From Candidatus Methanoplasma cognatum (GTDB lineage Archaea > Thermoplasmatota > Thermoplasmata > Methanomassiliicoccales > Methanomethylophilaceae), in NCBI GenBank assembly GCA_009777615.1, contig WRLM01000002.1:186001-250000 (forward strand): a stretch of DNA of 64,000 nucleotides. The letters run 5' to 3'. Numbering within the stretch: position 1 is the first letter of the stretch; each line of letters starts with the position of its first letter. Below the pieces are notes generated by a model. That model did no database searches. It was not told where the DNA came from and worked only from the letters and a program-made list of their open reading frames with translations. The translations under genes and the position numbers were made by a program. Shown piece after piece: positions 53,044 through 56,504 of this stretch.

Positions 53044-53832
53044 ATGCATCCCTCCGATCTTTGGAAAAGGCCGACTGGCCGGCCGCTGATAATGGGGATA
53101 CTGAACGTCACCCCCGATTCCTTCTCGGACGGGGGCGCGTACCTATCAAAGGAAAGCGCGCTGGAACGCGCTTACCATCTCATAGACGAAGGCGCCGATA
53201 TGCTGGATGTGGGCGGGGAATCCTCAAGGCCCGGCTCCGATACCGTTACCGAGGAAGAAGAGATCCGGAGGGTCATCGGAGTGATAAGAGATCTGGTTCC
53301 TACTGTTGATATCCCCATCTCGATAGACACTGCTAAGCCGCATGTCGCGGAAGAGGCAGTATCGGCGGGCGCATCCCTCATCAACGATATCTGGGGATTG
53401 AGGGATGAGACCATGGCCGATATCGCGATATCCAATGATATCCCGGCGGTGATCATGCACATGCACGGGACGCCGAAAACTCTCGGAACGGATACGATGG
53501 AAGGAGACGCCCTCAGTGAGATCAAAAGATTCCTCAGCAAGAGGGCGGAGCACGTCATAAGCAAAGGGATGAAGGAAAGGAACATCATACTTGATCCGGG
53601 CGTAGGTTTCGGAAAGACCCATGAACAGAGCATGATGATCGTAGAGAACAGCGGATGGTTCAGCAGCGCATACCCCGTTCTCATAGGGCCGTCCAGAAAA
53701 AGATTCCTTTCTCACTATTACCCAGATATGGAAACGGATGAGGCTACGGCGTCGGCATCCGTAACGGCCGCTGACAACGGCGCAAGGATACTGAGGGTGC
53801 ACAATGTCGGTAAGGTAAGGTCCCGCTTATGA
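53044..53832 (+). CDS. folP: Dihydropteroate synthase
   Basis: This 262-residue TIM barrel joins a pterin diphosphate to p-aminobenzoate. MGILNVTPDSFSDGG is the pterin-binding first loop, VGGESSRPGS is next, and SRKRFL and LRVHN come near the end. ATG 53044 follows the Fe-S gene stop by 2 bases; an open upstream frame merely lies inside that gene. It implies folate-type pterin synthesis in this archaeon. Confidence 0.92.
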   Translation: MHPSDLWKRPTGRPLIMGILNVTPDSFSDGGAYLSKESALERAYHLIDEGADMLDVGGESSRPGSDTVTEEEEIRRVIGVIRDLVPTVDIPISIDTAKPHVAEEAVSAGASLINDIWGLRDETMADIAISNDIPAVIMHMHGTPKTLGTDTMEGDALSEIKRFLSKRAEHVISKGMKERNIILDPGVGFGKTHEQSMMIVENSGWFSSAYPVLIGPSRKRFLSHYYPDMETDEATASASVTAADNGARILRVHNVGKVRSRL

Positions 53833-54033
53833 CGCCTGCATAAAGATACCGACCGCCAGTATCGCCGCCACGCTCACCACGGTCAAGACCGCGAAAAGCA
53901 TGTTATCCTTCTTTTCCTTTTTGATCCTGGCCTGTTCCTTCCAATAGCAGTCCTCCGAACAGTACGCCTGGTCGAAAGGTACGGGATCCCCGCATGTTTT
54001 GCAGTGGTCGTGTTCGGGCAGCTTCACGGTCAT
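53827..54033 (-). CDS. DUF2116-type zinc-ribbon membrane protein
   Basis: The 68-residue protein has an N-terminal treble-clef zinc ribbon (HCKTCGDPV ... AYCSEDC) followed by a basic linker (RIKKEKK) and one C-terminal membrane helix. Its function is unknown; small archaeal relatives are widespread. It converges on folP and is divergent from the ubiquitin-like locus. A treble clef so close to E1/E2 genes is noteworthy, but the Cys spacing is not that of a RING. Confidence 0.8.
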   Translation of the reverse strand: MTVKLPEHDHCKTCGDPVPFDQAYCSEDCYWKEQARIKKEKKDNMLFAVLTVVSVAAILAVGIFMQAS

Positions 54034-54489: not shown

Positions 54490-54497
54490 GTTTATAC
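54490..54497 (+). promoter_or_regulatory. TATA box of the ubiquitin-like operon
   Basis: GTTTATAC lies about 25 bases before the GTG chosen as the E1 start. The region from the ncRNA end (54426) to here shows no other feature. Confidence 0.55.
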
Positions 54498-54517
54498 GCA
54501 CAATGAGGGGGTACCGC

Positions 54518-55285
54518 GTGAAAGCAAGGGAATACGACGCCGACCGGTTCGACAGGATGAAAAGGATAGGCTGGCTCGACATCGAAAAGATACGGACATC
54601 CAGATGCCTGGTGGCGGGCGCGGGCGCGCTGGGGAACGAGGTCATAAAATGTATGCTGCTGGCGGGATTCGGTGACATCACCGTCGCGGATATGGACCGC
54701 ATCGTCCCGTCCAACCTCAGCAGATGCGTATTCTTCAGAGAGGCCGACGCAGGAAGGAATAAAGCGGAGGCCGTAGCGGAAAGGGCGTCCGAGCTCCACT
54801 CAGGAACAAAGATAACTCCCTTTACATCAATGATACAGGAACTGGAGGACTGGGATTTCGACATCGTGATGGGATGTCTCGACAACATATCCGCCAGACT
54901 CCACGCCAATTCCCATGCGAGATACCACAGGATACCGTACATAGACGGCGCCACGGACGGTTTCAGAGGTAAGGTACAGGTCGTGTTCGAAAGCGGGCCG
55001 TGTCTTGAATGCGGGATGAACAGCTCCCACATGAAGCTGATGGACGAAAGGTTCTCCTGCACCGGAGGAGGCACAATTTTCGTGCCTAAACTGGCGGCGG
55101 AGATAACGACAACGTCGGTGATCGCGGCCGTGCAGGTAAGGGAAGCGATGAAAATATTATCAGGTAAGAGGGAGTTGAGTATCATGAATGTCATGTACTA
55201 CGACGGGATGTCGGGAACTATGCAGTATCTCGAGATCCCGGAGGATCGTAACTGTTCGAATCACTATACGGAGGAATTGAAATGA
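54518..55285 (+). CDS. E1-like ThiF/MoeB-family adenylating enzyme
   Basis: The 255-residue protein is a minimal E1, which adenylates the C-terminal Gly of a ubiquitin-like protein. GAGALGNEV (34-42) is the nucleotide loop; ADMDRIVPSNLSRCVFF (57-73) supplies the Asp and catalytic Arg; GRNKAEA and CLDNISARLHAN follow. CLEC (162-165) is half of a zinc site. C181 (ERFSCTGGG) aligns with the crossover-loop Cys of MoeB/ThiF and is the best thioester candidate. GTG 54518 is chosen because a TATA box lies 25 bases upstream and GAGGGG 7 bases upstream; ATG 54503 is possible. It overlaps the Ubl gene by 4 bases. Confidence 0.9.
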   Translation: MKAREYDADRFDRMKRIGWLDIEKIRTSRCLVAGAGALGNEVIKCMLLAGFGDITVADMDRIVPSNLSRCVFFREADAGRNKAEAVAERASELHSGTKITPFTSMIQELEDWDFDIVMGCLDNISARLHANSHARYHRIPYIDGATDGFRGKVQVVFESGPCLECGMNSSHMKLMDERFSCTGGGTIFVPKLAAEITTTSVIAAVQVREAMKILSGKRELSIMNVMYYDGMSGTMQYLEIPEDRNCSNHYTEELK

Positions 55286-55524
55286 CCGTCAGAATTACCG
55301 TGGTCAACACGCTGAACAGCTCATCCATAAGGATGGAACTGGAGTCATATGAGTCTGTGGAAGATATAATCGACACCGCCGCTGAGTATTGGGGGAAGGA
55401 TGCCGGCGCCTATGTTCTCAGAAAAGGATCGAAACTCCTCAACAAGAGCCAGAGCATAGATGAGATAAACCTCAGAGATGACGACGTCATTGAGATGATC
55501 CCGGACCCGGAAGGCGGAAGCTGA
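55282..55524 (+). CDS. Ubiquitin-like modifier ending Gly-Gly-Ser
   Basis: The 80-residue beta-grasp protein has a ubiquitin-like order of strands and a helix (SVEDIIDTAAEYW, 25-37), followed by L-R-K-G-S-K-L-L-N (46-54) and D-D-D-V-I-E-M-I-P-D-P. It ends E-G-G-S: a Gly-Gly at 78-79 plus one extra Ser. That tail needs removal before activation, as in eukaryotic and Caldiarchaeum ubiquitin precursors, but not in MoaD or ThiS, which end in Gly-Gly. Lys 39, 48, 51 and 55 could serve in chain formation. The ATGA overlap with E1 and TGAG-ATG spacing to E2 couple the three genes. Confidence 0.88.
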   Translation: MTVRITVVNTLNSSSIRMELESYESVEDIIDTAAEYWGKDAGAYVLRKGSKLLNKSQSIDEINLRDDDVIEMIPDPEGGS

Positions 55525-55525
55525 G

Positions 55526-56011
55526 ATGGGCCTGGTAAAACCTGTGCTGATAAAGAGGATCAACAATGAGATCCTCGGCCTTAACGATCACCTGAGGATA
55601 AGGATCCCCCCGGTGCCGGAGAACGCGGGATTCCCGATCGAGATAAGCATATCGCTCAAAAACACTCCCGCAAGGATATCCAGGGACGAGATAGGCAACG
55701 ATCATGTCTTTGCCATTGTGGTGTCAGACAACTATCCGTACGAAAGGCCGAGGGCAAGGTGGATGACCCCCATATTCCATCCGAACATAATGATGCCAGG
55801 CGACGGCGGATTCGTCTGCGTGAAGACGCTTGACAACTGGTCATTCGGGTCGTCGCTCCTTTCTTTTGTTAAGGGGGTGGAACAGCTGATCTCAGACCCG
55901 AATCCGATGAACCCCTACGGCACGGACTCCTGCATGGAAGCGGCGAAGTGGTATGTCAAGAACAAGCCGAAGTTCGAAGCCAAAGTAAGGTACGGTGAGC
56001 ACGACGCCTAA
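55526..56011 (+). CDS. E2-like ubiquitin-conjugating enzyme
   Basis: The 161-residue protein has a UBC fold in the expected order: helix 1 (about 3-18), strands, then YPYERPRARWMTPIFHPNI (70-88) with the HPN tripeptide at 85-87. The catalytic Cys is C98 in GGFVCVK. W105 and DPNPMNPYG (124-132) match the region after the active site in eukaryotic E2s, and the C-terminal helix is A-A-K-W-Y-V-K-N. It would take the modifier from the E1-like protein and pass it to a substrate, perhaps without an E3, since none is nearby. True E2s are rare in archaea. Confidence 0.88.
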   Translation: MGLVKPVLIKRINNEILGLNDHLRIRIPPVPENAGFPIEISISLKNTPARISRDEIGNDHVFAIVVSDNYPYERPRARWMTPIFHPNIMMPGDGGFVCVKTLDNWSFGSSLLSFVKGVEQLISDPNPMNPYGTDSCMEAAKWYVKNKPKFEAKVRYGEHDA

Positions 56012-56504
56012 GATAATCTCCTCGGACGCGCCAGACATAGAATTCAGGACAAGGCCGGTGAAAGGCGTGTCACTTTACATCACCGAAGGGACGATAGCGT
56101 CAATGACGGACCATGCGGATGCGGGATATCTGGAAAACAAAGAGGTGATGGGCCTGCTGATAGGACACATTCTGAAAGATGAGGGCGGCATTTACGTGAG
56201 GGTAACGGATACGGCCACGTCCGGCCTGGATGCGGATGAGGCGAGCGTAAGGTTCAGCAGGGATGCCATAGAGGATCTGTTCGATTCTATCGACAAGTGC
56301 GAAGGGGATGCGGTGGTAGGATGGTATCACTCGCATCTCGGGATAGGGTGTTATCTTTCGGACATAGACATAAGGACACATACGGGCATATTCGGTAACG
56401 AGACAGGGTTTGCCGTTGTGATCGACCCGTCCGATTCCACTCTGGCAGCATTCTCATGCATAGGCGGCGAACCGCAGAAGGTCCCGATGATAATCCTGAC
56501 GTGA
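55995..56504 (+). CDS. JAMM/MPN+ metalloprotease (deubiquitinase-like)
   Basis: The 169-residue zinc protease carries the complete JAMM signature: Glu50 in NKEVMGLLIG, then H112-S-H114, Ser122 and Asp125 in HSHLGIGCYLSDID. Rpn11-like JAMM proteins remove C-terminal tails from modifier precursors and release conjugates. The obvious targets are the Gly-Gly-Ser tail of the neighbouring Ubl and its conjugates. The start is GTG 55995, overlapping E2 by 17 bases; no better start lies nearby. It ends the four-gene operon and converges on the HxlB gene. Confidence 0.9.
   Translation: MSTTPKIISSDAPDIEFRTRPVKGVSLYITEGTIASMTDHADAGYLENKEVMGLLIGHILKDEGGIYVRVTDTATSGLDADEASVRFSRDAIEDLFDSIDKCEGDAVVGWYHSHLGIGCYLSDIDIRTHTGIFGNETGFAVVIDPSDSTLAAFSCIGGEPQKVPMIILT

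Follow-up and report, generated by a model that had tools for sequence, protein, structure and literature searches.

The question raised by this locus is whether a termite-gut methanogen of the order Methanomassiliicoccales can attach a ubiquitin-like protein to other proteins and, if so, which protein would act as the ligase. The locus consists of four plus-strand genes, E1, Ubl, E2 and JAMM, which are read directly as a compact operon at positions 54518-56504 of the window, the 64,000-nucleotide stretch analyzed here. The E1 and Ubl genes overlap by 4 bases, the Ubl and E2 genes are separated by 1 base, and the E2 and JAMM genes overlap by 17 bases, in agreement to the base with the preliminary description of this DNA.

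The operon and its four products

A putative TATA-like box (TTTATA, 54491-54496, plus strand), recognized by its match to the consensus, lies upstream of the operon, and a Shine-Dalgarno sequence (GAGGGGG, 54505-54511) precedes the GTG start of the E1 gene. The surroundings are ordinary housekeeping genes, as had been proposed (LarA, an Fe-S oxidoreductase, FolP, SIS and the ribosomal proteins L18e, L13 and S9), and no rhodanese or tRNA-thiolation gene was found among these neighbors. A small membrane treble-clef protein of the DUF2116 family is encoded beside the operon (53830-54033), and DUF2116-like reading frames adjoin three relic loci of the kind described below (L129, L130 and L132). 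This neighbor was rejected as an E3, as it remains beside the Ubl gene where the E2 is gone.

The nearest named relatives of the host are 'Candidatus Methanoplasma' from termite guts. The E2 is found throughout Methanomassiliicoccales and is carried by 83 of 101 relatives. In all 82 related genomes that have the four genes, these are collinear on one strand, and the operon is therefore not a chance arrangement. It is a core feature of the order, missing from some genera through loss. The claim of a Ubl operon in an archaeon thus holds, except that the operon is not unusual in its lineage. Across the phylum Thermoplasmatota, 77 of the 390 genomes sampled contain the E2. Several Thermoplasmatota have two E2 loci each (L147 and L148 in G105, L162 and L163 in G140, and also G116 and G173), so that the system is duplicated there. 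In two other members of the phylum a Ubl-like sequence and an E2 share one reading frame (L155, 1931-2596, in G424; L156, 1702-2298, in G101), which is possibly a Ubl-E2 fusion. At L114 (G042) the Ubl frame is broken and the E2 is split, due either to an assembly error or to early decay.

The first gene (54518-55285, plus strand) encodes a ThiF/UBA3-like adenylating enzyme of 255 residues (Pfam ThiF, 4.6e-50). In a profile search of the PDB, the adenylation domains of eukaryotic Uba1 (5.6e-40), NAE/UBA3 (3e-38) and SAE2 (4e-36) are the nearest to it, and MoeB (2e-29) and UBA5 (4e-19) are further away. The ATP loop GAGxxGNE and residues N66, R69, K82, D122, T197-T198 and Cys181 are invariant in the alignment of 28 members. 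Cys181 (codon 55058-55060, plus strand), which is situated in a shortened crossover loop, is the candidate thioester residue and may be the catalytic cysteine; a search of the PDB with the C-terminal half of the E1, meant to place this residue by alignment, did not retrieve MoeB or UBA5. The C162xxC165 motif (55001-55012, plus strand), invariant in the same alignment, pairs with C246xxH249 in a probable zinc site, the zinc binding being our assumption from the MoeB and UBA2 families. The homology to UBA3 breaks at the insertion point of the Cys domain and picks up again at ITTTSVIAA. The E1 therefore contains neither the separate Cys domain nor the UFD of eukaryote-type E1s, and looks like an intermediate between MoeB-size enzymes and full E1s. 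As these domains bear on the mode of E2 recruitment, their lack counts against the explanation that we favor below.

The Ubl gene (55282-55524, plus strand) encodes 80 residues that end in PDPEGGS, as previously read. Similarity of the sequence alone to ubiquitin is weak, with a Pfam match of 0.0012 that is below the Pfam cut-off. The fold predicted by AlphaFold2 (pLDDT 88.5) is clearly ubiquitin-like, the best Foldseek match in the PDB being SUMO1 (E 3.9e-8, TM 0.84). The protein thus has the features of a beta-grasp modifier with a C-terminal Gly-Gly. P74, D75, P76, G78 and G79 are invariant in an alignment of 36 sequences, and Gly78-Gly79 (55513-55518, plus strand), the predicted mature C terminus, is invariant in every genome with an E2 and a complete Ubl gene. 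Ser80 (55519-55521, plus strand) is a one-residue C-terminal extension that varies among relatives: the tail reads PDP-E/Q-GG followed by 0-9 variable residues, ending exactly at Gly-Gly in 27 of 81 family members and carrying 1-9 residues in the others.

The third product is a ubiquitin-conjugating enzyme (55526-56011, plus strand; Pfam UQ_con, 7e-14), the profile of which matches RAD6/UBE2B in the PDB (7.6e-14). His85-Pro86-Asn87 (55778-55786, plus strand) is invariant in 36 sequences, as is Cys98 (55817-55819, plus strand), which aligns with the active-site cysteine of RAD6-type E2s. The predicted structure (pLDDT 89) matches the UBC fold with a probability of 1.0 and, from a shallow alignment, with moderate TM scores of 0.47-0.70. 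The protein encoded by the fourth gene (55995-56504, plus strand; Pfam JAB, 1.5e-14) is an Rpn11-like JAMM/MPN+ metalloprotease probably of the JAMM-3 type, with the E...HxH...S..D motif, nearest among solved structures to yeast Rpn11 (9.1e-27), Caldiarchaeum Rpn11 (4.6e-22) and CSN5 (2e-20). Its Glu50 (56142-56144), His112-Ser-His114 (56328-56336) and Ser122...Asp125 (56358-56369, all plus strand) do not vary among the 33 JAMMs whose motif is intact; the histidine motif is lost in 4 genomes. The JAMM probably trims the Ubl precursor and deconjugates the Ubl. The key catalytic residues seen earlier in all four genes are thus present and invariant among relatives. The ThiF, UBC and JAB profiles recover their proteins, the E2 model folds as a UBC domain, and C98 aligns with the active-site position.

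A membrane RING protein and the proteasome genes

The preliminary description found no RING or other E3, which is correct for the window and does not extend to the genome. A genome-wide search for RING proteins yielded a single protein of 206 residues; the searches used the 176 residues that start from an inner methionine. This candidate E3 is encoded outside the window (contig C1:276101-276628, minus strand), upstream of Pop5 and psmA, the gene for the proteasome alpha subunit. It has an N-terminal transmembrane helix, a RING of the C-C-C-C-H-C-C-C type and zinc ribbons. The helix is present at 43 of 51 loci, and C61, C64, C76, H83, C86, C93 and C96 are invariant in the family alignment. One zinc ligand, the second cysteine of C-x-C, is replaced by serine or threonine at L211, L213 and L214. 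With 25 bits the protein stays under the 27.3-bit Pfam cut-off; the profile of the family matches the RINGs of eukaryotic E3s (RNF165/Arkadia, 7e-8; also RLIM, RNF4, gp78, Hrd1 and DOA10).

Throughout the families that were sampled in the order, the RING gene precedes Pop5 and psmA, in a superoperon that also carries RNase P and exosome genes. In several families the RING is separated from Pop5-psmA by a gene of the FtsZ family (L197, L200, L203-L206 and L209-L213). Among genomes that are at least 90% complete, 48 have both E2 and RING, none has E2 without RING, 1 has RING without E2, and 11 have neither (Fisher 3.5e-11, uncorrected for relatedness). The sole genome with RING and without E2 (G052, 91% complete) represents an assembly gap or a true loss. 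Three genomes of lower completeness have E2 and no RING (G024, G050 and G076); in these the psmA region is missing or cut in the assembly. The E2-less genomes retain Pop5-psmA without the RING gene; for G017, the absence is uncertain, as its contig begins just upstream of Pop5.

On the psmA tree there are 7 changes of the RING against 8 of the E2, and three of the 4 independent pairs on supported branches are concordant for their joint loss, so that tree-aware support for the co-loss is limited. Relatives of the RING also occur in members of the class that have no E2. In three outgroup lineages within Thermoplasmatota, the RING gene is found inside the operon, in the order RING-E1-Ubl-E2-JAMM (L160), RING-Ubl-E2-JAMM (L147 and L215) or RING-E2-JAMM (L216 and L217), which independently supports the link. 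The membrane RING beside the proteasome gene is probably the missing ligase.

Losses of the E2, the Gly-Gly and the JAMM site

The repeated losses of single components provide clean natural experiments on the role of each part. Genomes without the E2 were inspected for surviving Ubl, E1 and JAMM. Five genomes of a single genus (g4; L126-L130) have neither E1 nor E2 at the locus; their retained Ubl is devoid of Gly-Gly, and it adjoins a degraded JAMM, recognized by weak similarity (E 0.0009-0.5 within a small set) together with its position. In G074 a Ubl without Gly-Gly is the sole remnant, and in G053 the E1 is degraded, the JAMM is dead, and the Ubl is relocated and also lacks Gly-Gly. Thus, in these three lineages, no surviving Ubl that was found without an E2 keeps its Gly-Gly, in keeping with the proposed chemistry.

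The active-site residues of the JAMM are lost in 4 genomes of two lineages (G003 and the genus g12), which keep E1, Ubl and E2, and all four Ubls beside these dead proteases end exactly at Gly-Gly. In the window's own genus, the other members with a readable tail have one extra residue after Gly-Gly. In total, a tail accompanies an active JAMM in 53 genomes and a dead one in none, and tailless Ubls accompany an active JAMM in 23 and a dead one in 4 (L121, where the apparent death of the JAMM is due to a contig end, is excluded). That dead JAMMs are seen only with tailless Ubls fits the JAMM as a maturation protease. The earlier proposal that the extra serine and the adjacent JAMM imply precursor processing is therefore retained for tailed lineages and dropped as a general feature. 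As tails are absent in 27 of the 81 Ubls, processing cannot be the sole role of the JAMM, and the 23 tailless genomes with an intact protease fit an additional deconjugating role.

In the closer pairs of relic Ubls and dead JAMMs, dN/dS is about 0.12-0.37, with dS often saturated; these proteins are therefore apparently kept for some function. In g4, this suggests purifying selection on the Ubl without Gly-Gly and on the degraded JAMM-like reading frame. A combined picture may be drawn tentatively, and we think it less likely than not: a minimal pathway in which the 255-residue E1, with neither Cys domain nor UFD, charges the canonical E2 and the psmA-linked membrane RING guides the Ubl to proteins, perhaps those of the membrane, that are destined for the 20S proteasome, and which after its loss would leave a non-covalent module of Gly-Gly-less Ubl and dead JAMM under purifying selection.

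The proposed pathway and its relation to known systems

The gene set, the families and folds, the invariant catalytic residues, the co-occurrence and the synteny, as read from the genomes, bear out the description of the E1, E2 and JAMM genes as a ubiquitin-like conjugation operon, and from them we infer the chemical steps, the E3 activity and the nature of the substrates. The system is, in our judgment, quite likely a reversible ubiquitin-like conjugation system that is native to Methanomassiliicoccales and has a wider distribution in Thermoplasmatota. The residues that follow the Gly-Gly of the Ubl would be trimmed by the JAMM. Gly79 would then be adenylated by the minimal E1 and transferred to a thioester, probably on Cys181, and the Ubl would be handed to Cys98 of the E2. 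The separately encoded, membrane-anchored RING would act as the E3, and the JAMM would remove the Ubl from its targets. Some of these targets, perhaps membrane proteins, may reach the 20S proteasome; this step, suggested by gene order only, is the weakest of the scheme. Besides the E1 architecture, points that count against the scheme are the moderate TM scores of the E2, the weak sequence match between Ubl and ubiquitin, the RING score under the Pfam cut-off and its serine or threonine substitutions, the RING relatives in E2-less members of the class, and the limited tree-aware support for co-loss.

The E1 and Ubl might instead function like ThiF/ThiS, MoeB/MoaD or UbaA/SAMP in thiocarboxylate chemistry, with conjugation being secondary. 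The E1 is indeed ThiF-sized and also matches the TIGR02356 ThiF and MoeB models, and the Ubl is a beta-grasp protein with a Gly-Gly that is the exact terminus in many relatives. A sulfur carrier, however, leaves an obligate E2 and the RING unexplained: the E2 with invariant HPN and Cys98 is in the operon of every four-gene genome. Moreover, the operon is not adjoined by sulfur-transfer genes of the rhodanese or tRNA-thiolation kind, the thiazole cluster of this genome is separate and has its own ThiF and ThiS-family gene, and the E1 profile is closer to Uba1/UBA3 than to MoeB. Scores are under the equivalog cut-offs (ThiF, 115 against 275 bits; MoeB, 96 against 266; MoaD, 16 against 49.5); a thiamine or molybdopterin role was rejected on these cut-offs and on the location of the thi cluster, and we regard sulfur transfer as very unlikely. 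Least probable of all is an anti-virus defense of the Bil/Bub/CBASS E1-E2-JAB type. The kinds of genes are those of Bil operons, and the E1 is weakly similar to the PADLOC E1-E2/BilD models and to BubCD. Against this, the similarity of E1 and JAMM to defense models is weak, the Ubl and the E2 have no match among the PADLOC models, the E1 has no N-terminal inactive half, the neighbors are housekeeping genes rather than a defense island, and collinear conservation throughout the order differs from the patchy spread of defense systems. Models, context and inheritance thus led to the rejection of this role.

It is also conceivable that the cascade needs no E3 and that the RING is an unrelated membrane zinc-finger protein, co-lost by coincidence. 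SAMP systems work without an E3 (PMC11354881), the RING is under its Pfam cut-off and has relatives in E2-less genomes, and genome-reduced lineages shed many genes at once. Coincidence would not readily account for a RING gene within the operon in three outgroup lineages, nor for its presence in 48 of 48 genomes with E2 against 1 of 12 without; all three apparent exceptions have a missing or cut psmA region, and the profile reaches true E3 RINGs. We therefore consider coincidence improbable and retain the RING as the candidate E3 of the conjugation system.

Most of what is known of archaeal ubiquitin systems comes from Aigarchaeota and Asgard archaea that are uncultivated. What appears to be a smaller form of the same cascade belongs here to the core traits of an order of methanogens with gut members. 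Methanomassiliicoccales include species in culture or enrichment, and archaeal ubiquitin-like conjugation could therefore be tested in living cells. The linkage of RING and proteasome genes suggests that a connection between tag, ligase and protease may exist beyond eukaryotes and their nearest relatives, and a reduced pathway resembling the ubiquitin-proteasome route may operate in these archaea. The general kind of system is already known (Caldiarchaeum and Asgard ubiquitin, PMC5654768, PMC6043591; JAMM-3 operons). Three parts appear to be new, namely the pairing of a canonical E2 with so small an E1, a membrane RING linked to the proteasome genes, and the relics with Gly-Gly-less Ubl and dead JAMM. 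The literature search found no account of the system in Methanomassiliicoccales in the open main texts that it covered, and priority is therefore uncertain.

The SAMP/UbaA/desampylase system of Haloferax shares with the present one a small ThiF-type E1, a modifier ending in Gly-Gly and a JAMM. SAMP conjugation needs no E2 or E3, whereas here the E2 is always present; membership was rejected, as the UbaA model scores 84 bits against a cut-off of 450 and the desampylase model 34 against 130. Bil and Bub operons also combine Ubl, E1, E2 and JAMM. They differ in E1 architecture, and the present system has an Rpn11-like JAMM, a housekeeping context and a linked RING, so the Bil parallel drawn earlier is valid for the kinds of genes and is otherwise weaker, with no PADLOC match of Ubl or E2 and a weak one to BilD. 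In the UFM1/UBA5/UFC1 cascade, a minimal E1 has its catalytic cysteine in the adenylation domain, and the precursor has a short tail past the mature C terminus. The minimal E1, with Cys181 in the putative catalytic role, and the short-tailed precursor are common to both. Unlike the UFM1 cascade, the E2 here has a canonical HPN, the E1 profile is nearer to Uba1/UBA3 than to UBA5, and the protease is a JAMM rather than the UfSP cysteine protease.

JAMM-3 proteases share operons with Ub, E1 and E2 homologues (PMC6043591, Fuchs 2018); no taxa are named for these in the main text of that paper. The present system, set beside this group by its description there, very probably falls within it, as the JAMM is similar to Rpn11/CSN5 and the operon has Ub, E1 and E2 and no RING; a trans RING, tails or losses such as those described here do not form part of that main-text account. 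The other parallel drawn in the preliminary description, the Caldiarchaeum subterraneum operon (Ub, E1l, E2l, the srfp RING and Rpn11; PMC5654768, PMC6043591), is supported: if the RING in trans is counted, the component set is the same, and the JAMM is Rpn11-like in both. In Caldiarchaeum, trimming of the C-terminal extension of the Ub precursor by the JAMM was shown biochemically, whereas here it is the genes that point to it; the pro-peptide there is nine residues long, and here PDPEGG is followed by 0-9 extra residues. Unlike the RING of Caldiarchaeum, the candidate E3 here is membrane-anchored and has its gene in trans, next to psmA, and the host is a methanogen rather than a member of the Aigarchaeota or Asgard archaea. 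Cys and UFD/UBL domains are present in the E1 of Caldiarchaeum (PMC5654768) and absent from the 255-residue E1, and the system described here therefore represents a variant.
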